Position numbers and translations under genes: made by a program
Part shown: positions 3,770-54,540 of the stretch, piece by piece
Layout of the letters: every line of letters begins with the position of its first letter
Numbering within the stretch: the stretch's first letter is position 1
Origin: Streptomyces albogriseolus
GTDB taxonomy: Bacteria; Actinomycetota; Actinomycetes; Streptomycetales; Streptomycetaceae
Direction of reading: 5' to 3'
Assembly (NCBI GenBank): GCA_014650475.1
Contig: BMVA01000010.1
Coordinates: 1-64,000 of the forward strand
DNA: 64,000 nucleotides
Notes under the pieces: generated by a model
Told to the model about the DNA's origin: nothing
What the model saw: only the letters and a program-made list of their open reading frames with translations
The model's database searches: none

Positions 3770-5508
<1,739 letters not shown>

Positions 5509-40187: not shown

Positions 40188-41048
40188 TCAGTGCTGCGGG
40201 GGCTGCCCGTAGGGGCCGGGCGCCTGCTGCGGCGGAACGCCGTACGGACCCGGCTGGCCGTAGGCGGGCGGCTGCGGGGCGTACGGGCCGGGCTGCGCGT
40301 ACCCCGGGGCGGGCTGCTGCTGCTGCTGCGGGAACGGTTGACCGTACGCCGGAGGCTGCGGGGCGTATCCCGGGGCGGGCTGCTGCTGCGGGAACGGCGG
40401 CGCGCCCTGGGCCTGCGCGCCGTACGGCCCGTACGGGCCGGCCCCGTACGGGGTGCCGGAGCCCGGCGGCAGGTAGCGCACACGGCCCGTCTCGTCCGCC
40501 ACCGGTGCGAAACCGGCCGCCTGGAGCCGCGCCGCGAACTTGGCGTTGCGCTTGCGGGTGACGACGAACCCGATGCCGAAGACCGCCATGAGCGCCAGCC
40601 AGATGATCCCCGCGATCACGAAGTCGTCCGAGGTGCCGCCCAGCCGGTAGGCGATGATCACGGAGCCGATGGAGACGCCGATCGCGCCGTAACCCATCCG
40701 CTTCTCGGCGCTCTTGCCCGTGAGGTCGAAGTTGATGCGCGCCTTGAGCAGCTCGAACGCGTCCGGCACGAGCGGCGGCACGGAGACGCCGTCGTGGGCG
40801 TTGGGGTACTGCGCCCAGTTCTGGGCGGCGCGGGCCCGCGCCTGCGGGCTGGGGTCGGGCACGATCAGCATCTTCAGCTGGCTGTTGTTCCCGCCGCCCT
40901 GCCGGACGTCGGCGTACTCGTAGCCGAACTGCTGGGCGACGAAGGCGAGTCGGGCGAGTTTCTTCACGGATGCCATGGGGCTGGTGAGCTCCACCGGCTC
41001 CCCGCTCGCCATCAACTGCAGCATCTTCTGCGTCTGCCGCTTGCTCAT
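40188..41048 (-). CDS. Two-span membrane protein with Gly/Pro/Tyr/Gln-rich C-terminal tail
   Basis: 286 residues from ATG 41048. The N-terminal 110 residues are a soluble domain (MASVKKLARLAFVAQQFGYEYADVRQGGG...). Two close membrane spans follow (YGAIGVSIGSVIIAYRLG and FVIAGIIWLALMAVFGIGFVVT, about 128-170). The last 80 residues are repeats of the GPYGPYG and APGYAPQPPAYGQP types. I do not recognise the N-terminal domain. Such Tyr/Pro/Gln-rich tails in actinobacterial membrane proteins are probably cytosolic, low-complexity interaction segments. It is 26 bp downstream of the ATP-binding regulator gene, so possibly co-transcribed. Confidence 0.82.
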   Translation of the reverse strand: MSKRQTQKMLQLMASGEPVELTSPMASVKKLARLAFVAQQFGYEYADVRQGGGNNSQLKMLIVPDPSPQARARAAQNWAQYPNAHDGVSVPPLVPDAFELLKARINFDLTGKSAEKRMGYGAIGVSIGSVIIAYRLGGTSDDFVIAGIIWLALMAVFGIGFVVTRKRNAKFAARLQAAGFAPVADETGRVRYLPPGSGTPYGAGPYGPYGAQAQGAPPFPQQQPAPGYAPQPPAYGQPFPQQQQQPAPGYAQPGPYAPQPPAYGQPGPYGVPPQQAPGPYGQPPQH

Positions 41049-41074: not shown

Positions 41075-41548
41075 TCACTTCAGCAACAGGGGCAGTGTGG
41101 CACGCCCGCCCACCTCGAACCAGAGCAGCTTTCCCGCTCCCCGCCCCAGCGCCCCGTCACCGAGGGCCCACCCTCCCCAGGAGTCGGCGTACTCCTGCAC
41201 GAGACGCAGTCCGCGCCCGGATTCGGCGCCGGGCCGAGCGGGCGGAGCGGAGTCGTTGCCACCAGCCCCGCTGAACGGGGCGGGGATGTACGGGTGACTG
41301 TCCCACACGCCGACCCGCAGCCGGCCGTCGCTCAGCCCGGTGAGCCGCAGGGAGGCGGGCCCCTTGGTGTGCAGGTAGGCATTGGTGATCAGCTCCGACG
41401 TCAGCAACTCCACGACTTCGAGGGCGTCCTGCCTGCCGTGCCCGTCGAGCGCCGCCCGCACCGTCATGCGTGCGACGCGTACCGCGCGGGGGTCACGGGG
41501 GAGGCGAAGGGCGTACGCCCAGGGGTGGGGCGGGGCTACGGTGACCAT
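41075..41548 (-). CDS. HATPase-domain (anti-sigma-factor-like) regulatory protein
   Basis: 157 residues from ATG 41548. It has the histidine-kinase-like GHKL ATPase fold: N-box EVVELLTSELITNAYLH, a D-box at VWDSHP, and the G-box SGRGLRLVQEYADSWG. There is no phospho-acceptor domain. These short proteins are very numerous in Streptomyces and resemble the SpoIIAB/RsbW anti-sigma kinases, but few have a known partner. It is divergent from an XRE/DUF5753 regulator followed by a DUF397 protein, the triad seen in WhiJ/AbaA-type developmental loci. Confidence 0.9.
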   Translation of the reverse strand: MVTVAPPHPWAYALRLPRDPRAVRVARMTVRAALDGHGRQDALEVVELLTSELITNAYLHTKGPASLRLTGLSDGRLRVGVWDSHPYIPAPFSGAGGNDSAPPARPGAESGRGLRLVQEYADSWGGWALGDGALGRGAGKLLWFEVGGRATLPLLLK

Positions 41549-41688
41549 GGTGTCTCCGGGGATCAGAGGGGGACTTGGGTTTCGCACTCACGGCCACGCC
41601 GGGCGGTGGCAGTGCCTTGGTCGGTGCGCTTCCGGCTTACGAGCGCGACGTGTGAGCGATACCGCTACGGTAGAGCCGATCTGGAAGA

Positions 41689-41714
41689 TAAATCTCCCAA
41701 CTGCGGGAGGTTCA
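41689..41714. promoter_or_regulatory. Dyad in the HATPase / XRE divergent region
   Basis: TAAATCTCCC (41689-41698) and GGGAGGTTCA (41705-41714) are complementary at 8 of 10 positions around AACTGC. It lies about 60 bp upstream of the XRE start in locally AT-rich DNA. A likely binding site for the XRE regulator. Confidence 0.45.
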
Positions 41715-41773
41715 TCTCTATTTAGCTCGTGTGAGGGACGTGAGAGCCGCTTCGCGGCCAGGAAGGACACGCT

Positions 41774-42628
41774 GTGCCGCCCACGAACAATCCGACGCTG
41801 CGGCAACGGAGACTGGGCGCCGAGCTGCGCAAACTCCGGGAGAAGGCGGGGTTCACGGTGACCCGGGCCGCCGAGCACCTGGGCGTCAACCAAGGGCGCG
41901 TGAGCATGATCGAGACCGGTCGCAGCCCGGTGAGCGCCGACCTCGTGCGCGGGATGGCGTCCGCCTACGACTGCTCCGACAAGGCTCTGGTCGACGCGCT
42001 GGCCGCCATGACCGGGCGCCGACGCCGGGGCTGGTGGGACGAGTACCGCGAGCATCTGCCCGCCGCCCTGGTCGACCTGGCGGAGCTGGAACACCACACT
42101 ACTGCGCTACGCGTCGCGCTGGTGATCCACATTCCGGCGCTGTTGCAGACCACCGATCACGCCCGCGCCCTCTTCCGGACCGTAGTGCCGCCCATGCGCC
42201 AGTACGAGATCGAGCACCGTCTCACGTACCGCATCAAACGGCAGGGCATCTTGCACCGAGAGGATCCGCCGTCCTACTCGGCGATCATTCACGAGGCGGC
42301 CCTCCGCATGGGGTTCGGCGGCCCTTCGGTGGCTCACGGCCAGCTCACGCACCTGCTCGACATGGGCGAGTTGCCCCATGTCACCATCAGGGTGATCCCG
42401 TTCGGCACGGACCACTTCCCGAGCACCGGCCAGTCATTCGACTACCTCATGGGCGCCGTACCGCAGCTCGACACGGTCCAACTGGACACGCACCACGGGG
42501 GCTGCGGTTTCCTGGACGCGGAGGCACAGTTGGCCAAGTACCGAGCCGTACTGGACCACATGACGTCCTGCGCACTCGATCCCACCGAGTCCCGCAACTT
42601 CATCCACAACCTCATCCGGAAAGCTTGA
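41774..42628 (+). CDS. XRE-family regulator with DUF5753 domain (WhiJ-like)
   Basis: 284 residues from GTG 41774. The N-terminal HTH is RLGAELRKLREKAGFTVTRAAEHLGVNQGRVSMIETGRSPVSA (residues 13-56). The C-terminal DUF5753 domain (about 95-275) contains QTTDHARALFRTV and the GTDHFPSTGQSFDYL region. Proteins of this type, paired with a DUF397 gene and a HATPase gene, include WhiJ and related regulators of streptomycete development and antibiotic production. The signal sensed is unknown. The DUF397 gene follows 11 bp downstream in the same operon. Confidence 0.93.
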   Translation: MPPTNNPTLRQRRLGAELRKLREKAGFTVTRAAEHLGVNQGRVSMIETGRSPVSADLVRGMASAYDCSDKALVDALAAMTGRRRRGWWDEYREHLPAALVDLAELEHHTTALRVALVIHIPALLQTTDHARALFRTVVPPMRQYEIEHRLTYRIKRQGILHREDPPSYSAIIHEAALRMGFGGPSVAHGQLTHLLDMGELPHVTIRVIPFGTDHFPSTGQSFDYLMGAVPQLDTVQLDTHHGGCGFLDAEAQLAKYRAVLDHMTSCALDPTESRNFIHNLIRKA

Positions 42629-42639
42629 GAAGGAACACC

Positions 42640-42846
42640 GTGCAGACCATCCGTTGGCGCAAGTCGTCCCACAGCGGCGACAGTTCGAACTGCGTAGAGA
42701 TAGCCCCCACGGCCGCCGCCGTCCTCATACGCGACTCGAAGACGACGTCCGGCCCGCGGCTCGGCCTCTCCCCCACCGCGTGGGCCGCCTTCCTCACGCA
42801 CATCGGTCAACGCTCTTCGACGACGTCGATCACAACAGCGAAGTGA
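42640..42846 (+). CDS. DUF397 protein (BldB/AbaA-like small partner)
   Basis: 68 residues from GTG 42640, with GAGAAGGA upstream. The signature IRWRKSSHSGDSSNCVEIA followed by VLIRDSKTTSGPRLGLSPTAWAAFL is typical of DUF397, although the usual C-terminal FLxxVK end is replaced by HIGQRSSTTSITTAK. This suggests the 3' end has been altered: the final 40 bp overlap, tail to tail, the immunity-like gene on the other strand. DUF397 proteins probably modulate their XRE partner by direct contact. Confidence 0.85.
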   Translation: MQTIRWRKSSHSGDSSNCVEIAPTAAAVLIRDSKTTSGPRLGLSPTAWAAFLTHIGQRSSTTSITTAK

Positions 42847-43259
42847 CGTTCGAGGTCGCGGGCGAACTCCTCCCCTCCCTTTCCGGGGACCACGTGATGC
42901 CACCAGGAAAACGCCTGCGGATCGGCAAGCCTGATGGGCACAGTCGCGATCTTGCGAAATCGCTCGTCGACGTCGTGTACGGCACGCCAGAAGTCATCGA
43001 AACCCCTCGTTCCACGGAGGGAGTCCTCAGCGAGTCCACGCTCGATGGCGTCCCGTACGCGAAGGTCATGAAAATACTCAGGCAGCACATCATCGTACCC
43101 TTCCTGACACGCTGCCACGAACTGCCTCCACGAAGCCAAGTCCCTCAAGGCGGAAACACCCTCCCGTCGCCCCGCCCTGACTTGCACTTCCTCGTACCCA
43201 TGGAGAAATTCATTTGCGATACCCACGACCTCTTGCCACCTCCCTGAGGGAACAGTCAC
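42807..43259 (-). CDS. Putative immunity protein for the RHS toxin
   Basis: 150 residues from ATG/GTG 43259, 9 bp downstream of the RHS stop. It has no signal peptide or membrane span, with many aromatic and acidic residues (FDDFWRAVHDVDERFRK, FSWWHHVVPGKGGEEFARDLERHF). I do not recognise the family. The role is inferred from position: in polymorphic toxin systems the gene immediately after the toxin tip encodes cognate immunity. Base composition and codon use are less GC-biased than the core genes around it, as for the adjoining toxin tip, consistent with the two moving together. Its 3' end overlaps the DUF397 gene on the opposite strand. Confidence 0.65.
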   Translation of the reverse strand: MTVPSGRWQEVVGIANEFLHGYEEVQVRAGRREGVSALRDLASWRQFVAACQEGYDDVLPEYFHDLRVRDAIERGLAEDSLRGTRGFDDFWRAVHDVDERFRKIATVPIRLADPQAFSWWHHVVPGKGGEEFARDLERHFAVVIDVVEER

Positions 43260-43268
43260 GATACCGTT

Positions 43269-46200
43269 TCACTCGATGAACGATCCCCCGTATTTCGCCT
43301 GCTGTTCCCGCATGTAACTGTTCAAATTACCGCCCGGACGGAAGAAGGTCTGAACATTTCCTCGACTGTCCAGCACTCCGAAGTACCCAGTAGCACTGTC
43401 CGCCCGGAACAGTGTTCCTTCATTCGACACCAGGTCGCCGCGACGAGGACCGCCCGACATGAATTTACTAGCTGCTTCTTTATAGGCATTGAATCCGCCG
43501 ACGCCGGCGAACTCAGACATGTCCGGCTGATGGTGGCCCTGCATCCCGGTCCAGTTCCCCTTCTTGTTGAGCTGCACTCCAAAGGCGTGCTTCATGTAGT
43601 GCCGGAGGGCTGACATAGGGGAAGCAAAGCCCGGCCCGCAGTTCGAGTTGTGAACCAGTACCGCCGTCCGGCCCGCCAGCACATAGTACGTATGCAGATC
43701 GTCGACTGTGAGATTGTAGGTACGGGCGTGCCTGGTGAAGGCGCGGTTTCCGCTGACGATAACCGTGTGGCCGGTGTGGGTGCGCAGGGTCATGCCCGCG
43801 GTGAGTTCGCCCGCTTCGATCCAGTCCTGTTCGGACGGGGACCAGAAGGGGTGCTCGTGGGTCGCGGTGAGCTTCTCGATGCCGTCGGTCGTGGCGATCG
43901 ACAGTTCGTTGAAGTCTTTGTCGTCCTCGGTGACGATGAGGCGGGTGACCTTATGGGCCCCCGTCTCACCGGTTTCCGGGTCGGAGGCCAGGACCTCGTC
44001 CCCGAGTTCGACATCCTCGATGTCCTTGGTGGTTCCATCGGCCATGAGGACGTCGGTCCCCGCCAGGAAGCACTGGAAGCAGCTTATTACCCTCGCACGC
44101 TTCCCGACGGCCGAGGCCGCCGTCGAGCCCCTTCCTCCGGTGACCAGAGCCGCGATAAATCCCTCGACCAGTTTGCCGCGCTCAAACGCCTTGGAGTCCG
44201 CCACACACTCGTTGAAGTTCGCGATGCAGTAGTTCGCGGCGATGCGCTTGGCCTCCGCCACGTCGTCATGGCGCAACAGGTAAACGTACGCCTGACGGCA
44301 CGCCTCCCGGCCGAAGCACGCGTTGCCCGGGCCGTCGTTCTCGTAGATCGGCGTCACCCAGTAGTCGGTCTCGGGTGAGTCACCGTTCGGACTGTTCATC
44401 TGGAAGTGCTTGAGCAGTTCCTGGAGATCGTTCGTCCGGGGCGTCTGGCCGGCATTCCACGCGGCCATGCGCTTGAAGGTGTCACCGCCCCCATTCGGCG
44501 TCCCCCGCACCGTACCGTCGGAGTCCAGCCCTCCGTCCGGGTCGCCCTGGGTGCCGCCGTCGGGGCGGGTCCAGCCCTTGCCGTCGTTGCAGCTGTCACA
44601 CCAGAGTCCGCTCGGATCGCTGTGGCTGACCGGACTGTTGCCGCTGTACGCGTAGCCGTTCATCTGGAGCGGGTCCGCGATGTCGATGACCGGGTCCGCC
44701 GAGAGGAAGCGTCCGGAGTCCTGGTCGTACTCGCGGGCACCGATGTGGGTCAGCCCGGTGGCCGTGTCGTCGATGCCGACGCCCAGGTAGCCGCGCTTGT
44801 TCGGCCAGACCGACGGCTTGGTCCCGCGGGTCTCGCCGTAGGGCTTGAAGGCACGGCGGGTGACCGCCTGGCCGCTCGACAGGGAGACCGCCGTGTTCGC
44901 CGTGCCGAGGTGGTCGGTGAGCAGCACGCTGAGCTGGTGACCCGTCGTCGCGCCGTTGCTCGTCGTGCGGGTCACCGACGGTGCGCCGACCTGCCCGTAG
45001 GTGCGGGAGGCCCGGACGATCGCCCCGGCGGCGTCGGTCGTCACCTCGGTGTCGCCCAGGTAGAGCGTCGAACCCGACGGGGAGTTCTCCAGGACGCGGT
45101 TTCCGGCGGTGTCGTAGACGTATGTGGTCTTCTTGCCGTCGTCCGTGATCGTGTCGAGCTTGTTCTCCTGCGTCCAGGTGAGGTTCTGCGTGGTGGTGGG
45201 CAGGTCGCGGACCTCGGTGTTGCCCGTCGCGTCGTACGTATAGCTGCTGCCCTTGCCGGCCGGGTCGGAGCTGATCCACTTCATGGTGTGCGGCTGGGGC
45301 GTGCCGTAGCCGTACTCGAGGGAGACGTTCTTCGTCGCGTCCGCCGGGTCGTGCTCGGTCATGGCGGTGCGGTTGCCGAGCCAGTCGAAGGTGAAGGACT
45401 GGTGGTAGGCGGTGCCTCCCGTGGAGACCGTGGCCGCGTCGGGGGCGGTGGCCGCCCGGGTGGAGGCCAGCGCGGTGTCCGGGCTCGACACGTCCGTCGA
45501 CGCGTCGGGGGCGTCGGCCACCGGGCCGGACGAGGCCATGTAGTCCGTGCGGTGTCCCCAGGTCGCGCCGTTCGCCGCCTTGCAGCCGTCGTCGGAGCCG
45601 GTCGGGGTGATGTTCGACGTCCAGGCGTTGAGCAGCTCGCCCATCACGTCGTAGGTGAAGCACTGGGTGTCCCACGACGAGCCCGAGGCGTCCGTCAGCC
45701 GGCGTGCGTGGGAGGTGACGGTGCCGGACTTGTCGTACGAGTAGTAGCCGTCGGCGATGCGGTGCGGGCCGGAGGTCTCACGGTCCGCGACCGTGCGCTG
45801 GAGCCGGCCGGTGTGCGGGTCGACGAAGTTCGTCGTCCACACCCGGTACGGCTGCGCGCCGGACACCGTGCGCAGGGCCTCGCCGTAGGGCGAGTAGGTG
45901 ACGTCGGACGTGTACCAGGCCGAGCCCGACGTCGACTCGGGGAGGCCGTCCGCGTTGTAGCGGGTGACGACCTTCTCCTGCGCCAGCCCGCCCACGGCGG
46001 GCAGCGTGACCGACTGGACCTGTCCCGTGACGGGTGTGTAGGTGTACGCGTAGGCGTACGTTCCGGCGACGCCCGTCGTCAGCAAGCTGGGAGGGATCAC
46101 CGTCTCCGTGCCGGTGGGTCGGTACTCGGTGTCGTAACCGGTGACGCGGTCGGTGTAGTCCCCGTTCAGGGTGCGGCGGATCGAGGCGACCGGTTGCCCG

Positions 46201-49200
46201 AGCGCGCCCGGCAGGCTGTCGTACGTGAACTCCTTGACCGGTACGGCCGTCGCGGAGCCCTCACGGACGAACTCCACCCGGCCCAGCTCGTCGTACTCGG
46301 TGTACGTCGTCCTGGACTCGGCGTCCGTCACCTTCTGAGGCCGGTCGGCCTCGTCGTACCACGTCTTCGTCTCGCCCGTGTCGGGGTCGGTGACGGAGGT
46401 CACCCGTCCCCGTGCGTCGTACGTGTACGTCCACGCGTTGCCGGCCGGGTCGGTGACCTTGGTGCGGTAGCCGCGCGCGTCGTACTCGTACGAGGTGGCG
46501 CGCCCCTCGCTGGTGCTCCCGTCGTCCTTGTAGTGGCGGACGGAGGTGACCCTGCCGAGGGCGTCGGTGAAGGTGCGGGTCCGCGGGACCGTGGAACCGG
46601 CGGGGTCGACGTACGTGCTGGTGTCGCTGTAGTAGGTGTAGGTCGCGTACGCGAAGTCGCCGTCGTGGTACGTCGACTCGCGCTGCTTGCGCTCCAGGCC
46701 GTCGTAGCGGTACTTGATCCAGCTCGGGATCAGGGACCGGGACCTGGGGGCGAAGAGCTCGGCGGCCGGCTCGCCCTTCGCGAGATACCCGCTGGTCTGC
46801 TCGTTGACCAGGCCATGGTCGTTGTAGGTGGTGTCGGTGACGACACGGCCGGGGCCGTGGGCTTCGGACTGCGTCTGCACGGGGCGCATCAGGCCGTCGT
46901 AGATCACCACCTGACGGCTGTACGTCCCGTCGTCCTTGAGGCTCTTGGTGGTGGCCGCGGCGGGGCGGGTCGTCTCGGCGGTGGCGATCGCCGCCTGGTA
47001 CGAGATCTCGACGTCGGGCGACTTGCCGCCGGAGGAGCGGGACGGCGACCAGCCCTTCACCAGGCGCCCGAGGGCGTCGTACTCGTTGCGCGTGACCCGG
47101 CCGTTGGCGTCGGTGACCGTCAGCGCCAGGCTCCGGCCGGGGTCGAAGGTCGTCGTGACGGCATGGCCCTTGGCGTTGATCACCTTGGTGGCGGTGACCG
47201 GCCCGCCGGCGTCCGCGGGGGTGTACTGCGTCTCGGCCGTGCCGACCCCCGGACTGGTGACCGTGCGGACACGGCCCAGCGGGTCGTACGTCGTGCTGGT
47301 GACGACCGAGTAGGAGGTTCCGGCACCGTCGACACCGGCCTGGGAGGTGAGCAGGCCCTTGGTCGGGGTCGCGCCGTACGACAGGCTGTCGTAGCTGTTG
47401 CGGACCGCCTTGACGAGCTTGGTCGCCGGGTCCGCGGTGTCGTACCCCGCGCACGAGGTGCCCGTGGTCCGCTGTTCCTTCGTCAGGCCGATCAGCCACG
47501 CCGTCGTGTTGTGTACGTACGCCGTCCTGGTGCAGCTCTGGTCGGACAGGGTCTCGCCGGTGCCGTTCGGCTTGACCACGGACGTCTCGACCTGGACCGG
47601 CAGACCGTAGGTGTCGTCGACGGTCGTCAGGGTCCGTACCGCCCGCCAGCTCGTGTCGACGGTCTGGATCTCGTCCGACCGTTTGACGCCGGTGCGGTGG
47701 GCGAGCAGCGGGTCGAGGGCGGTGCCGTTCTCGGCCTCACGGGAGCGGGAGGCGGTCTGCCTCGACCAGGGGAAGCTCAGGGCACGCTTCTGCACCCGCT
47801 TGTCGGAGTCCAGGTAGGTGATGCTCTCCGCCGTCATGCCCGCGTACTGCGGTGCGTCGTCGGTGACCAGCGTGTACTTGCCCGTGGAGTCCTTGACCTC
47901 CCCGCCCGTGCCCTGGAAGTACCGGGTCTCGGAGTACGACTGCGCCTGTGGCTCGCCCGACTGGGAGGTGGTCTTGCTCCCCTTGGTGACCGCGACCTGG
48001 CGGTAGCCCTGCCAGACGCTGAACGTCCGCAGGGACGGGCGGGTGAACTCGTCGTCGCTCTTGGCCCAGGCGGGGCCGGTGTACTTGTACGTCGTGTGGA
48101 CGGGTCTGCCGTGCGAGGTGACCTTGTCGGTCTGGGTGACGGAGTGGACGACGTACTTGTTGAACCACGACTTCGCCGGCGTCTTCTCGTCACCGTCCGG
48201 TGACCAGCGGACCGGGTAGCAGGTGCCGTTGTCCTTGCCCTTGTCCTCGGCCGGCTCACCGGCGCAGCCGCCCTTGTACTCGACCTCGATGTCACCGCCG
48301 TGCTCCGTCGCGACCGTGCCGATGCGGGGCCGGGTGAAGGCGGGACGCTGGTCGTTCGGGCCGCTGGGCACGAGGTTGGGAAGCTGGCGGTCCTTCAGTC
48401 TCGCGCGCAGGGGCGACGTGGAGCCGACCGAGTACTCGGCGAAGCTGACACCGTCCTTGTGCTGGAGGGTGCCGGTGGTGTCACCGGGGGCGAAGCCCCG
48501 GCGGGTGATCGAGTTCAGCCACAGGCCGGGGGCCGTGTCGTACCAGTCCTCCGGGAAGGACTGGTGGAGCTGGTAGGTGTCGACCTTGCCCAGGCCGGTC
48601 TGGCCGGCGCGGGCGGCCTTCGTCGTCACCGTGTCCAGACGCATCTGCGTCCAGAACGACGGGAAGGCGGGGCACAGCTTCGACGTCGACTTGCAGTTGA
48701 GGTTGCCGGGGGTGTCCCACCAGGGGCGGTAGGCGCCGGGGTCGTCGGTCTTGGCGAAGTTCGCCGCGTCGCAGGCGGTCTCCGACTTCAGGCAGCGCTG
48801 CTCGGCGCCGAACTCGACCGTCGCGGACGGCTTGGTGAGATCGGAGGAGCGCATGCCGTACTCGATGGTCGTCGGGTAGGCGGAACGCTCGTACTGCTCG
48901 GGGGAGGTGAACTTCTTCTTGACCGCGTAGTGGTTCGTCTCCTGCTTCCAGTTGACGACCATCACGTTGCCATGCACGTCGACGACCTTGTCGAGGCCCC
49001 AGCGCCAGGCCTGCTGCCGGCCGGCCCCGCAGCGGGAGTCGGCGAACGCGGTGGCGTGACAGGGTTCCCCCGGGTGGTTGCCGAAGACGGGCACGGTGGA
49101 GACGGAGTCGGCGTCGGCGTGACCGCCGCCGACCTGGTCGAGGCCGAAGTAGTACTTGGTGCCGTCCGTGGTGGTGACGATCCAGTACTCGCCGTTGTCG

Positions 49201-50573
49201 TCGCCGTTGGTCCCGCCCGTCCTGTGCTCGACGCGGGTGCCGTCGTCGGTCTGGGCACGGTAGACCTCGGTGTCGGTCTCCGGGTCGCTGCCCGCGGGGG
49301 CGTCCCGCACGAGCTCGACGTTCCTGCCCCCCAGGGACATCACCGCGTTGTACGACACCCAGCACAGGTCGGAGGTCTTGTCCGCCTTGGCCGTGTTGTT
49401 GGGGGTGCCGGCGTCCAGGGTCTTGCGGTCGTCCTGGCAGGAGCGGTAGCGGCGCTCGATGTGACCGGGGTCGTAGCCCCAGCCCTCACCGATCCAGGAG
49501 GACTGGGGTGAGGAGACCGCGACGCGGCCGTCCACCGACTGGGAGTTGTAGCTGAAGGTGATCTGTGGAGCGGGACCTGCCGGAGCGGCGGGAACCGTCA
49601 GCGGGTACGACCAGGTGAACGCTCCCGAGGAGCCGCCGGCCTGCCAGGAGCCGCTGGAGGCCAGCGGCGTGGCCTTGAAGGTCCCTCCCGCGCCTCCGCC
49701 GGAATCGACCGCGCCGACGACGGCCGTGTCGCCGCTCGCCGCGGCCGGCGTGACCGAGGTGCGGTACGCGGCCCGGGCGACGGAGGGGCCGGTGGCCCCG
49801 GGGGTCTCCGCCACAGCCGGTGTGACGGTGCCGTCCGCCGCCGTGTCGACCGTCGCGGTGATCGTCTGGGTCCCGGTGTCGTTGGTCGTCTCCAGTTCCT
49901 CGTACGTCTGGCACGCCTCGACATCGGGCGTGGTCAGGTAGCACTCCGGGAACTGGACGAAGCGCAGCCGGGAGGCCCAGTCCGCGCCGTAGAGGTTCTT
50001 GAACTTCGCGTAGTCGAGCTCGACCGAGACGGGGACGGAGCCGGTGGCGGGTGCCTGGACGGTGATGAGCGCGCCGTCGACTCCCTGGGAGACGGGCGCG
50101 GTACGGGCGGCGACGGACACCTGCCAGGTGCCGGTGGGCGCCGGCTGGTCCACGGCCTGCCCGAGGCTGACGGGAAGGTCCTCGACCGGGGTGAGGCCGG
50201 CCTGCCGGGCGTCCGTGCCCGCGCGCACGGTGGCCTGGTCGGCCGTCGCGGCGGAGCCGAAGCTGACGAGCCCGGAGTCGGCGGCGGGCGCCGTCGCCGT
50301 GCCGGCCGGGGCTTGTTCCAGGTCTGCGGGGACGTCGACCTTCAGGGTTTCCAGGTCCCGCTCGAAGGCCTCGCCCGAGAGCGGCTTATCCTGGTCGAGC
50401 GCCTCGAGGTCGAGGGTTTCGCGGCCCTTCTCGGCCACGGACGGATCGGGCGGAAGGGCCAGTGACTGCGTGGGCAGGAGGCCCACCAGCAGGGCCGCCC
50501 CGATGGTGGGCACGACGGCCGCGCGCACACGGCGCGTGCGACCACGGCGGGCAGGTGAGTAGTGACCGAACAC
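43269..50573 (-). CDS. Secreted RHS/YD-repeat polymorphic toxin with C-terminal HINT domain and toxin tip
   Basis: 2434 residues from GTG 50573 (GGGGGGA upstream). A twin-Arg-rich signal sequence with hydrophobic core AAVVPTIGAALLVGLLPTQSLA ends near residue 40. Residues about 300-700 resemble the SpvB/TcB-type N-terminus (SYPLTVPAAPAGPAPQITFSYNSQSVDG). YD repeats run from about 1100 to 1900 (TRNEYDALGRL, TSYEYDARGYRTKVTDPAG, TYTEYDELGRVEF). The RHS core ends at RFLSADPVIDIADPLQMNGYAYSGNSPVSHSDPSGL, near 2000. A HINT autoprotease occupies about 2168-2309 (CFLAGTDV ... LTATHEHPFW ... VLVHN), and a 125-residue toxin-like tip (2310-2434) follows. The RHS shell is expected to encapsulate the tip, and HINT to release it. 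The tip is of uncertain class; a BECR-type RNase is possible. Confidence 0.93.
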   Translation of the reverse strand: MFGHYSPARRGRTRRVRAAVVPTIGAALLVGLLPTQSLALPPDPSVAEKGRETLDLEALDQDKPLSGEAFERDLETLKVDVPADLEQAPAGTATAPAADSGLVSFGSAATADQATVRAGTDARQAGLTPVEDLPVSLGQAVDQPAPTGTWQVSVAARTAPVSQGVDGALITVQAPATGSVPVSVELDYAKFKNLYGADWASRLRFVQFPECYLTTPDVEACQTYEELETTNDTGTQTITATVDTAADGTVTPAVAETPGATGPSVARAAYRTSVTPAAASGDTAVVGAVDSGGGAGGTFKATPLASSGSWQAGGSSGAFTWSYPLTVPAAPAGPAPQITFSYNSQSVDGRVAVSSPQSSWIGEGWGYDPGHIERRYRSCQDDRKTLDAGTPNNTAKADKTSDLCWVSYNAVMSLGGRNVELVRDAPAGSDPETDTEVYRAQTDDGTRVEHRTGGTNGDDNGEYWIVTTTDGTKYYFGLDQVGGGHADADSVSTVPVFGNHPGEPCHATAFADSRCGAGRQQAWRWGLDKVVDVHGNVMVVNWKQETNHYAVKKKFTSPEQYERSAYPTTIEYGMRSSDLTKPSATVEFGAEQRCLKSETACDAANFAKTDDPGAYRPWWDTPGNLNCKSTSKLCPAFPSFWTQMRLDTVTTKAARAGQTGLGKVDTYQLHQSFPEDWYDTAPGLWLNSITRRGFAPGDTTGTLQHKDGVSFAEYSVGSTSPLRARLKDRQLPNLVPSGPNDQRPAFTRPRIGTVATEHGGDIEVEYKGGCAGEPAEDKGKDNGTCYPVRWSPDGDEKTPAKSWFNKYVVHSVTQTDKVTSHGRPVHTTYKYTGPAWAKSDDEFTRPSLRTFSVWQGYRQVAVTKGSKTTSQSGEPQAQSYSETRYFQGTGGEVKDSTGKYTLVTDDAPQYAGMTAESITYLDSDKRVQKRALSFPWSRQTASRSREAENGTALDPLLAHRTGVKRSDEIQTVDTSWRAVRTLTTVDDTYGLPVQVETSVVKPNGTGETLSDQSCTRTAYVHNTTAWLIGLTKEQRTTGTSCAGYDTADPATKLVKAVRNSYDSLSYGATPTKGLLTSQAGVDGAGTSYSVVTSTTYDPLGRVRTVTSPGVGTAETQYTPADAGGPVTATKVINAKGHAVTTTFDPGRSLALTVTDANGRVTRNEYDALGRLVKGWSPSRSSGGKSPDVEISYQAAIATAETTRPAAATTKSLKDDGTYSRQVVIYDGLMRPVQTQSEAHGPGRVVTDTTYNDHGLVNEQTSGYLAKGEPAAELFAPRSRSLIPSWIKYRYDGLERKQRESTYHDGDFAYATYTYYSDTSTYVDPAGSTVPRTRTFTDALGRVTSVRHYKDDGSTSEGRATSYEYDARGYRTKVTDPAGNAWTYTYDARGRVTSVTDPDTGETKTWYDEADRPQKVTDAESRTTYTEYDELGRVEFVREGSATAVPVKEFTYDSLPGALGQPVASIRRTLNGDYTDRVTGYDTEYRPTGTETVIPPSLLTTGVAGTYAYAYTYTPVTGQVQSVTLPAVGGLAQEKVVTRYNADGLPESTSGSAWYTSDVTYSPYGEALRTVSGAQPYRVWTTNFVDPHTGRLQRTVADRETSGPHRIADGYYSYDKSGTVTSHARRLTDASGSSWDTQCFTYDVMGELLNAWTSNITPTGSDDGCKAANGATWGHRTDYMASSGPVADAPDASTDVSSPDTALASTRAATAPDAATVSTGGTAYHQSFTFDWLGNRTAMTEHDPADATKNVSLEYGYGTPQPHTMKWISSDPAGKGSSYTYDATGNTEVRDLPTTTQNLTWTQENKLDTITDDGKKTTYVYDTAGNRVLENSPSGSTLYLGDTEVTTDAAGAIVRASRTYGQVGAPSVTRTTSNGATTGHQLSVLLTDHLGTANTAVSLSSGQAVTRRAFKPYGETRGTKPSVWPNKRGYLGVGIDDTATGLTHIGAREYDQDSGRFLSADPVIDIADPLQMNGYAYSGNSPVSHSDPSGLWCDSCNDGKGWTRPDGGTQGDPDGGLDSDGTVRGTPNGGGDTFKRMAAWNAGQTPRTNDLQELLKHFQMNSPNGDSPETDYWVTPIYENDGPGNACFGREACRQAYVYLLRHDDVAEAKRIAANYCIANFNECVADSKAFERGKLVEGFIAALVTGGRGSTAASAVGKRARVISCFQCFLAGTDVLMADGTTKDIEDVELGDEVLASDPETGETGAHKVTRLIVTEDDKDFNELSIATTDGIEKLTATHEHPFWSPSEQDWIEAGELTAGMTLRTHTGHTVIVSGNRAFTRHARTYNLTVDDLHTYYVLAGRTAVLVHNSNCGPGFASPMSALRHYMKHAFGVQLNKKGNWTGMQGHHQPDMSEFAGVGGFNAYKEAASKFMSGGPRRGDLVSNEGTLFRADSATGYFGVLDSRGNVQTFFRPGGNLNSYMREQQAKYGGSFIE

Positions 50574-50762: not shown

Positions 50763-51054
50763 CCGACACCCGCACTTCCCTGAGGTAGCGCGCGATTCAC
50801 CGGATTCAGCCGCAAACACTCGTCGGTGCGGGGAATTTTTGTCCGGCTTGGAACTGAATTGACGTCAGCTCGCGCGTCCCACCAGGCAGTTGACGGCAAT
50901 TCGTGTCCCCCGGAGGTACGGCCCCGGTGCCCGATCCGCTCATCCCGCGGGCTCGACGCGAAGCGTGACGTCGGCGCGCTCATGGGTCATCATCGGCTCG
51001 CCCGGCCGCGCCTGTTTCCGCGCCGGTTCCAAGGGGGGAAGGGGAACTCGCCCG

Positions 51055-54000
51055 ATGACGCGCACAGAGCGCACCCGGCGCCGGGGGCTGCCCGGAAATC
51101 GGACCACCGCCGCCGTACTGACCGCGGCTCTCGCCGCCACCGGCATCACCTTCGTCGGCCTCGGCCTGGACGACTCCGGCTCCCGCGGGGAACCGCACCG
51201 TGACCGGAGCGCGAAGCCGGTGACCGAAGCCGCCGCTGTGTCGCGGGCGCGGAAGACCGGCGAGCTCGTCGAGGTCACCGCATCGCGTACGGCGCGCTCC
51301 ACCACGTGGGCGCGACCCGACGGCCTCATGGTCAAGAACCTGCACTCCTCGCCGGTCCGGGCCAAGGTGGGCGGCGAGTGGAAGGACATCGACTACGACC
51401 TCCACCGCACCGAGGACGGCTGGGAACCGAAGGCGACCAACGCGCGGATGGTCTTCTCGGCCGGCTCCGAGAAGGGCTCGCCGGCGCGGGAGGACCGGCG
51501 GGCCTCGCGCTCGACCGTGCGCCGCGTCTCCCTGCTCAACGGGGCCGGGGCCGCTTCGGACGAGACCGCGAGCCCGCTCGTCACCCTGACCGTCGACGGC
51601 TACGACATCCAGCTCACCTGGCCGGGCGCCGTCCCCGCCCCCGTCATCGACGGTTCGCGGGCCCTGTACCCGGAGATCTTCCCAGGCGCCGATCTGGTGC
51701 TCACGGCCGACGACGAGGGCTTCGCCCAACTCCTCGTCCTGAAGAACCGGGCGGCTGCAGCCAATCCGCTCGCCCAGCGGCTGTCGTACGGCATCACCTC
51801 CGACGACCTGACCTTCCGGCTGGACCCGGTCACGGGTGTCCTGTCCGCCGAGAACGTCTACTCCCAGGAGATCGCGGTCTCGCCGACCCCGCTGATGTGG
51901 GACAGCAGCGGAGCGCCGGCGGTGACGGACGGCGGCGTCGGCGCGACCGCGCAGCCGACCGCTTCGGAGACCCCCGGCCCCACCGAGTCGGCCACCGACC
52001 TGCCGAGCGACAGCCCCAGTCCCACCGAGGAGCTGATCGAGACCGACGAGCAGGCCGACACCAATCCGGAGACCCTGCCGGTGGCCAGCGACGGTCCCGA
52101 GGTGACGGTGTCGGAGTCGCCGTTGCCGTCCGTCCCGGCGGAGCCGACACCCGCGCCCACACCGACCGGCCCGGCGGCCACCCTCGGCCTGGCCGGGCTG
52201 GACGGGCCCTCGCCCGACTCCCGCGGTGAGCTGGTCGAGGCGGAACTGTCCGGGGCGAACTGGGTCCTCACCCCCGAGCCGTCCTTCCTCGACGACCCGG
52301 CGACCACCTATCCGGTGTTCGTCGACCCGTCGGTGAAGAAGCACACCCAGAACTGGACCACCGCCTACAGCCGGCACCCCAACGCCACGTTCTACAACGG
52401 CAAGGGCTTCAACAAGGGCGGTACGCACGAGGCGCGGGTCGGCTTCGAGTCGGACACCTGGGGCACCTCGCGCTCGTACTTCAACATCGCCTTCGACAAG
52501 GGCCTCAAGGGCACAAAGATCACCAGTGCGAAGCTGCGGATGCTGGAGACGTACTCCTGGTCGTGCAGCGCCCGTTCGATGAGCGTGCACCTCACCGGCG
52601 CGGTCAACGGGCACACCAACTGGAAGAACGCGCCGAAGCTGACCGACGGCAACAAGTTCGCGACCAAGAGCTTCGCGCACGGCTACAAGTCCGGCTGCCG
52701 GGACGCCTACGAGACCTTCGACGTGAAGAAGGCCGCGCAGCAGCGGGCCGACCAGGGCAAGGACAGCATCACGTTCGGGCTGCGGGCGCGGGACGAGAAA
52801 TCGCAGTACGCGTGGAAGAAGTTCCGGGCCAACGGCGACAACGCGCCCGTGCTGGAACTCGTCTACAACCGCAAGCCGGTCGTCGACGCCAAGTCGCTCG
52901 ACCTCGGCCCGGACGCCAAGTGCACCACCACCGAGCCGTACGTCCGCATGGGCTCGGGCGACCTGACCTTCACCGCGCGGGCGTCCGACAAGGACAACAA
53001 CCTCGACCGCCTGGACTTCGACCTGTGGCCGACCGGCAAGTGGGACACCACCGGTGACCTCCTGAAGACCACCGGGAACGTCTCCGTCGGCGGCGACAAG
53101 GACGTCGCACTGCGCACCACCGGCGGGTTCGCCACCAGCAAGCTCACCAACAACACCCTCTACTCCTGGCGGGTGCGCGCGGTCGACGACGCCAACTCCA
53201 CCTCCGCCTACGCCCCCGCCAAGACACCCTGCCGCTTCGTCCTGGACACCACCGCACCCAAACCCCCCAAGGTCAGCTCCACCGACTTCCCCAACGCCGA
53301 CGGCAGTGAGAACGGCTTCGGCAACGACGCCGAGGACGCCAACTGGTCCACCAAGAAGTTCGGCACGCCCGGATCCTTCACCGTGCGCGCACTGAACACG
53401 GACGTGGTCCGCTACGAGTACGGCTTCAACTCGGCAAGCTACCCGTTCTCCTTGAGCCGCACCTCCGGAACGGCCACGAGCGTCAGCGCGACGCTGGCGA
53501 ACACCAAACCGCCGACCGCCGGACCCAACGTGCTGTACGTACGGACCGTGGACGCCGCGGGCAATGTGTCGCAGGCGACGAAGTACTTCTTCTACGTCAC
53601 CCCACGCGACCAGGCCGACACCCCCGGCGACTTCACCGGCGACAAACTGCCGGACCTGATGGTCGTCACCGAGGGCGGCAACCTGGCGCTGTACCCCTCC
53701 CAGGCCACCAACGACCTGGCCAAGGGCTCGGGCGACCTGGACTACTCCATGTCCGGCGCCTACCGCTCCAACCCCGACAAGGACCCGGGCGGCGACGACC
53801 TGCCCCCGTACGTCGCCGCGCCCTCCGGCCACTTCAAGGGCGCCCTGATCACCCACAACGGCGACATCTACGGCGGTGACGGCCTCCAGGACCTCATCGT
53901 CCGCGTCGGCGGCAAGCTCTGGGTCTACCCCGGCGACGGCTACGGCGCGGTCGACATCGACCGACGGGTGGAGATCCTCCTCCCCGACAACGCGCCCAGC

Positions 54001-54540
54001 CCCGCCTCCCTCACCCAGATCGTCTCGGCCGGCGACGCCACCGGGGACGGCCGCACGGACTTCTTCGCCACCGTGGGCGAGGAGATCTGGGCCTTCACCG
54101 GCTACCACGGCGCCAGCATCGACAAGGCGATCCGGCTGTCCTCCACCCCCTGGGCCGACCGCGACATCGTCACCGTGGCGGACATCAGCGGCGACGGGGT
54201 GACGGACCTGGTCTACCGCACCGACGTCTCGGGCCGGCTCCTCTTCCGCAAGGGCATCAAGGCCGCCGCCGGCGGAACCGACCTGACCTCCCTGGCCTCC
54301 GCCGCCAACTCCGCCGACGGGGTCGACGCCGTCTACGGTTCCTCCGGCTGGGGCAGCTCCAGCATCTACCTGCTCATCGGCACCCCCGACGCCAACGGCG
54401 ACGCCATCCCCGACATCTGGACCGCGCGCACCGACGGAACCGTACGCTTCTACGCCGGCGGCAGGACCGTCCTGTCCGGATCCGGCACCGAGATCATCGG
54501 AACGGCGAGCTACTGGAAGACCCGCATCGCCATCGGCTGA
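51055..54540 (+). CDS. Secreted DNRLRE-domain protein with C-terminal FG-GAP/VCBS repeats
   Basis: 1161 residues from ATG 51055, after GGGGGGAAGGGG. A signal sequence with hydrophobic core (TTAAVLTAALAATGITFVGL) ends near residue 35. A Ser/Thr/Pro/Glu-rich linker (about 290-370) follows a beta-rich domain. The DNRLRE domain spans about 395-590 (FVDPSVKKHTQNWTTAYS ... APVLELVYN). A fibronectin-like region (600-850) precedes five FG-GAP/VCBS-type Ca-binding repeats (GDFTGDKLPDLMVV, GGDGLQDLIVRV, GDATGDGRTDFFAT, ADISGDGVTDLVYR, PDANGDAIPDIWTA). Proteins like this commonly lie beside RHS genes in Streptomyces and may build the surface or delivery structure. Role inferred. Confidence 0.9.
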   Translation: MTRTERTRRRGLPGNRTTAAVLTAALAATGITFVGLGLDDSGSRGEPHRDRSAKPVTEAAAVSRARKTGELVEVTASRTARSTTWARPDGLMVKNLHSSPVRAKVGGEWKDIDYDLHRTEDGWEPKATNARMVFSAGSEKGSPAREDRRASRSTVRRVSLLNGAGAASDETASPLVTLTVDGYDIQLTWPGAVPAPVIDGSRALYPEIFPGADLVLTADDEGFAQLLVLKNRAAAANPLAQRLSYGITSDDLTFRLDPVTGVLSAENVYSQEIAVSPTPLMWDSSGAPAVTDGGVGATAQPTASETPGPTESATDLPSDSPSPTEELIETDEQADTNPETLPVASDGPEVTVSESPLPSVPAEPTPAPTPTGPAATLGLAGLDGPSPDSRGELVEAELSGANWVLTPEPSFLDDPATTYPVFVDPSVKKHTQNWTTAYSRHPNATFYNGKGFNKGGTHEARVGFESDTWGTSRSYFNIAFDKGLKGTKITSAKLRMLETYSWSCSARSMSVHLTGAVNGHTNWKNAPKLTDGNKFATKSFAHGYKSGCRDAYETFDVKKAAQQRADQGKDSITFGLRARDEKSQYAWKKFRANGDNAPVLELVYNRKPVVDAKSLDLGPDAKCTTTEPYVRMGSGDLTFTARASDKDNNLDRLDFDLWPTGKWDTTGDLLKTTGNVSVGGDKDVALRTTGGFATSKLTNNTLYSWRVRAVDDANSTSAYAPAKTPCRFVLDTTAPKPPKVSSTDFPNADGSENGFGNDAEDANWSTKKFGTPGSFTVRALNTDVVRYEYGFNSASYPFSLSRTSGTATSVSATLANTKPPTAGPNVLYVRTVDAAGNVSQATKYFFYVTPRDQADTPGDFTGDKLPDLMVVTEGGNLALYPSQATNDLAKGSGDLDYSMSGAYRSNPDKDPGGDDLPPYVAAPSGHFKGALITHNGDIYGGDGLQDLIVRVGGKLWVYPGDGYGAVDIDRRVEILLPDNAPSPASLTQIVSAGDATGDGRTDFFATVGEEIWAFTGYHGASIDKAIRLSSTPWADRDIVTVADISGDGVTDLVYRTDVSGRLLFRKGIKAAAGGTDLTSLASAANSADGVDAVYGSSGWGSSSIYLLIGTPDANGDAIPDIWTARTDGTVRFYAGGRTVLSGSGTEIIGTASYWKTRIAIG

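Follow-up and report, generated by a model that had tools for sequence, protein, structure and literature searches.

A candidate RHS-HINT polymorphic toxin of Streptomyces albogriseolus with an exchangeable tip and a linked putative immunity gene

The 64,000-nucleotide stretch of Streptomyces albogriseolus contig BMVA01000010.1 analysed here (the window) carries on its minus strand a long RHS gene whose product ends in a HINT domain and a 125-residue tip, with a small gene directly behind it. This layout had led an initial annotation, made from the letters alone, to propose a polymorphic toxin with its own immunity gene. The features of the locus are as follows.

43269..50573 (−): RHS shell-HINT-tip gene, GTG start, 2434 amino acids
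50439..50573 (−): N-terminal 45 residues, Sec-type signal peptide judged by eye
44604..44846 (−): RHS repeat-associated core, residues 1910–1990; NCBIfam TIGR03696 (Rhs_assc_core), E 1.8e-16
43647..44072 (−): HINT autoprocessing domain, Cys2168 to His-Asn 2308–2309, placed by PF07591 and landmark residues
43269..43646 including the stop (−): toxin tip, 125 residues, predicted BECR-fold ribonuclease, from an AlphaFold2 model, PDB comparisons and alignments
43587–43592 (−): KH codons of the tip (P0003 numbering and alignments, as for the next two)
43404–43406 (−): R83 codon of the tip
43347–43349 (−): T102 codon of the tip
42807..43226 (−): putative immunity gene, 139 amino acids if started at GTG 43226, as is likely, or 150 if started at GTG 43259; predicted all-helical
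42807..43646 (−): exchange cassette of tip and immunity gene, nearest to S. actuosus and Streptomyces sp. MUM 2J, with low GC content at third codon positions (GC3)

The large protein is an RHS carrier, with the RHS_repeat family in eight stretches (Pfam, E 2.1e-20) and the core in a single long chain. PT-HINT (PF07591) covers residues 2177–2310 (E 2e-20), and the domain runs from Cys2168 at nucleotide 44072 to the Asn codon of His-Asn 2308–2309, which ends at 43647, so that an autoprocessing domain stands ahead of the tip as in RHS polymorphic toxin systems. Coordinates and family matches agree with the earlier description of a 2434-residue RHS protein ending in HINT and a unique tip. The Sec-like N-terminus, read by eye, suggests that the protein is secreted.

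The AlphaFold2 model of the tip has a helical segment followed by an antiparallel sheet of the BECR type, and the tip is predicted to belong to this known ribonuclease (RNase) fold. Rows 2–7 of the VIA structure comparison are all BECR RNases (colicin D four times, 3AO9 and HigB1), and the Foldseek E value is only 5.2e-3. H22, the [RK]H motif and [ST]102 are kept in all eight members of the tip alignment A1, residue 102 sitting in strand 100–104 of the model as the conserved Ser/Thr of the last strand; His22 and Gly25 of a His22-x-x-Gly25 motif are invariant in 9/9 aligned tips, and most aligned members have Lys or Arg at position 83. Searches of Pfam, NCBIfam, PADLOC and PHROGs turned up nothing significant for the tip. 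The modelled fold points to RNase activity, and the target would probably be tRNA. Three loci (L033, L037 and L054) hold a subgroup of shorter (110–112 residues), acidic (pI 4.6–4.7) tips that retain KH and the Ser/Thr. Weak relatives of the tip, with no member of the immunity family in the stretch examined, occur at the C-terminus of WXG100-type proteins (L058, L062) and on an RHS-HINT protein of another family (L060).

The small gene had been described as a 150-residue frame beginning 9 bp past the RHS stop. Such an open reading frame (ORF) is present (42807–43259), but its start and length are better placed at GTG 43226 and 139 residues: in S. actuosus (L047) and Streptomyces sp. MUM 2J (L048) the frame has no start codon ahead of the equivalent of this GTG, and the gap from the RHS stop to its position is 42 bp in the window and in both relatives, which makes the shorter gene the more likely one. 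Its protein is acidic while the tip is basic, and its model is all-helical. No significant match was found in Pfam (best E 0.044 across all eight members of the family alignment A2), in NCBIfam (where the window's protein, P0002, alone was scanned), in PADLOC or in PHROGs, and the immunity profile A5 had no significant match in PDB; no solved structural relative was found. The gene most likely encodes immunity to the tip, and its product would neutralise it.

Members of this family also occur in other settings. In L036 (positions 4672–5400, genome G225) a 243-codon frame has the family as its C-terminal portion; the frame follows an ART-like tip (identified by eye) and the small gene belonging to that tip, apparently an orphan or multiple-immunity locus. 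Distant relatives stand alone in L039, L040, L041 and L043 (profile E 1e-9 to 2e-11); the stretch examined there contains nothing that matches the tip profile. In L034, L035, L038, L046 and L057 the immunity gene or the cassette is fragmented or truncated, with transposase-like frames (by eye) near L035 and L038; these broken copies show signs of displacement or decay.

Where the tip is found, the small gene follows. The family lies immediately downstream of the tip in all 14 distinct loci counted, whose tips are rows of the tip alignments or match the profile at E 1e-17 or better; the linkage first read from one locus is thus borne out, none of these homologous loci lacking the gene. Two of them lack HINT, one in a Crocinitomicaceae metagenome-assembled genome (MAG; L052) and one in S. 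fumanus (L050); another is on a linear Streptomyces plasmid (L098), where the gene is annotated as hypothetical and no HINT was seen by eye. L057 is a truncated copy. Outside the count stand the broken copy L038 and the weak L058–L062. Among 295 genomes of the genus, 18 have the small gene and 6 have the tip, and all 6 tip genomes have both. The distances of the tips correlate with those of the immunity proteins at 0.89 over 12 pairs (0 of 5000 permutations); the partial correlation is 0.84 once the distance of the 1000 residues ahead of the tip, a segment that contains HINT, is removed. The correlation is 0.55 for tip and shell, 0.59 for immunity and shell, and 0.09 for tip and shell given immunity. 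Computed without L057, L038 and L098 on sequences that are few and related, these values are support for co-variation and not proof of it. The small gene adjoins the tip and is tied to that tip, as expected of a polymorphic toxin. In the Bacteroidota MAG the pair sits on an RHS protein without HINT, and the GC content is 0.36 for the tip and 0.29 for the immunity gene against 0.36 for the locus, so that transfer between phyla, if any, was not recent.

Shells related to that of the window carry other tips. With the 611 residues before the tip as query and 150 relatives, 93 genomes match at E <= 1e-30. Of the 29 best loci with related shells (L064–L092, the window's own excluded), 25 have HINT within the stretch examined; none of the 29 matches the tip or the immunity profile, and the 25 hold 21 or 22 tip types, three pairs of tips being similar along most of the chain and a fourth pair across 44 residues. 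The tip is therefore not invariant, and the initial annotation's view of the locus as a polymorphic toxin layout (RHS shell, HINT, tip, adjacent small gene) stands, with variable tips and a linked small gene. In the six loci that most resemble the window (L064, L065, L066, L069, L070 and L074) DNA identity of 68–82% runs through shell and HINT and stops at 43647–43630, the HINT/tip boundary, so that similar carriers at one locus end in different tips. Six alternative tips, that of L080 and five of those six, were scanned in Pfam; they gave a DddA-like match (E 1.9e-11), a Fic match (E 6e-5), GIY-YIG (E 0.0089) and AHH (E 0.0088) hits that both fall below the cut-off, and, for two tips, no match at E <= 0.01. 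In 6/7 inspected alternative-tip loci, L066 being the exception, the end of the tip is followed within about 30 bp by the start of a small ORF.

The boundaries of the exchanged unit follow from segment identities. A continuous match from 44071 to 42805 with L047 and L048 had suggested that HINT, tip and immunity gene move together, and this was ruled out: DNA identity to L047 rises from 63–68% in HINT to 82% in the tip and is 76% across the immunity stretch, whereas identity to L064, L065 and L066 is 75–85% in HINT and 40–55% over the first tip bases, and the HINT protein is 80% identical to L064, 83% to L065 and 53% to L047. HINT thus belongs to the shell lineage, shell and HINT both being closest to loci that carry other tips, and the incoming unit is tip plus immunity gene. 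Similarity to L047 stops at 42805, just beyond the immunity stop. The GC3 values of the tip (0.68) and of the small gene (0.66) lie below that of the shell with HINT (0.935), a composition that fits later arrival of the two; of the window's 64 1-kb bins, 43001–44000 is the poorest in GC (0.598). HINT probably serves as the recombination anchor. A chance ORF or artefact was ruled out, the relatives keeping the same gene order; a phage origin was rejected as well, 40 stretches in viral contigs having matched a pattern and none having been confirmed.

The proposed core chromosomal setting holds in part. Three genomes with other tips (G067, G007, G049) have the same FG-GAP gene on one side and, on the other, the same narK-like gene, the gene at 40188, or both; in G040 and G019 the FG-GAP side alone matched and the downstream neighbours did not. 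The shared neighbour is the following.

50890..54540 (+): divergent partner gene with FG-GAP repeats; Pfam FG-GAP_3, E 1.9e-9

This gene adjoins the RHS gene in all five related loci compared (L093–L097), at 75–83% identity, and may be part of the delivery machine; it presumably also holds a DNRLRE-like part. Between the immunity gene and the gene at 40188 lie an XRE/DUF5753 regulator and, by eye, an ATPase-like gene (41075–42628). At E 1e-5 neither was matched in L093–L097, and the two may therefore have been inserted locally.

We therefore read the locus as a Sec-exported RHS polymorphic toxin system with a HINT-freed tip, in which the small gene confers immunity and both are swapped as a cassette, and give this reading a probability of roughly 0.82. 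The large protein would be exported with its C-terminus enclosed by the RHS shell; HINT would cut itself at the His-Asn junction and free the 125-residue tip, which looks like an RNA-cutting toxin aimed at rival bacteria; and the acidic, all-helical product of the small gene would bind and block the basic tip inside the producing cell. The two genetic parts, tip and immunity gene, would be inherited and exchanged as a single cassette, with the conserved HINT just upstream as the probable anchor for recombination, so that one chromosomal launcher could carry different toxins in different strains. Computation shows the anatomy of the locus, the linkage and co-variation of the pair, the change of tips at a syntenic locus, the limits of the cassette and, as a prediction, the fold; export, cleavage by HINT, RNase activity, a tRNA target, neutralisation and recombination through HINT are inferred.

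Three other explanations were weighed. The pair may be a polymorphic toxin and its immunity protein while the tip is no RNase, having a BECR-like fold with another activity or having lost catalysis. RNase activity is deduced from the fold, with the modest Foldseek value given above, and the acidic tip subgroup is unusual for an RNase; set against this, the structure-comparison rows are uniformly BECR RNases and the [RK]H and [ST] positions are fully kept in A1, and we regard this explanation as unlikely. Less probable still is that the small gene is other cargo or an accessory gene travelling with the tip. Its protein has no solved structural relative, the immunity role is deduced here, and distant relatives stand alone in four loci, but the gene is acidic and directly past the toxin stop, its distances track the tip rather than the shell, and the family's presence behind a different toxin in G225 is what an extra immunity gene would give.

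It is least likely of all, and barely plausible, that the tip serves the producer's development or adhesion and that its variation is drift and not that of a weapon. Antagonism is itself a deduction, and nothing specific favours such a role; the modular swapping of tips that resemble deaminases, Fic proteins and nucleases, and the small ORF close behind nearly every alternative tip inspected, speak against it.

With the cassette-borne toxin as the preferred reading, its kind is well known, and its immunity family is unnamed in the databases searched. We consider it an even call whether the locus represents a BECR toxin clade without a name, paired with an all-helical immunity family of its own that is likewise unnamed and lacks a recognised solved relative; the two would be spread over Streptomyces chromosomes, a plasmid and a Bacteroidota MAG, and swapped as a two-gene cassette behind a conserved HINT acting as a recombination handle that reloads one chromosomal RHS launcher. 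Many Streptomyces RHS proteins lack a known function, and for one of them the analysis names a specific toxin-immunity pair, with residues that probably form the active site and a revised start for the small gene. The immunity family, missing from Pfam and, for the window's protein, from NCBIfam, could serve as a lead to further toxins. Because a single locus has different tips in several species, and because its DNA boundaries are sharp both where HINT meets the tip and at the stop of the immunity gene, RHS tip exchange becomes directly testable.

Among the closest known systems is the contact-dependent inhibition toxin of E. coli O32:H37 (PDB 8EY4), whose carrier is a PT-VENN protein and not RHS-HINT, and whose toxin lacks the extra residues that the window's tip has after the KH motif; its partner is not recognised as related to the window's immunity protein, since profile A5 finds nothing significant in PDB. 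The fold of the tip also resembles the colicin D tRNase domain (PDB 1V74, 5ZNM), to which we take 1TFO and 1TFK to belong as well, and the colicin D immunity protein ImmD is not matched by the window's. Membership in the Tox-Colicin D clade was rejected: its motifs, as printed, are [KH]K, Hxx[ED], [ST] and [TS]xxK (PMC3482391), and the tip has Gly25 where Hxx[ED] requires an acidic residue. The conserved residues resemble the signature printed for Ntox41, an actinobacterial family of predicted BECR fold found with HINT and RHS, namely [RK]H, [KR] and [ST]xxP (Zhang et al. 2012, PMC3482391). In the window's tip the corresponding residues are KH, Arg83 and T102...P106, the last motif, [ST]xxxP, being one residue longer than the printed one; the part of that source describing Ntox41 lists no immunity family. 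The suggestion that the pair was undescribed thus holds for database families, and less so for the tip, with its known fold and Ntox41-like residues; no published account of the pair was found among titles and the starts of abstracts. YxiD-YxxD of Bacillus subtilis 6633 is described as a Gram-positive polymorphic toxin with a BECR tRNase and cognate immunity (PMC12700104). YxiD is given as an LXG toxin (PMC9600267) and YxxD as an Sm-like protein with beta strands (PMC12700104), whereas the window's immunity model is all-helical. With RHS-HINT polymorphic toxins in general (PMC3482391) the locus shares the RHS shell, HINT ahead of the tip, the exchangeable C-terminus and the adjacent immunity gene, and it differs from them solely in the identity of the tip and of the immunity family.
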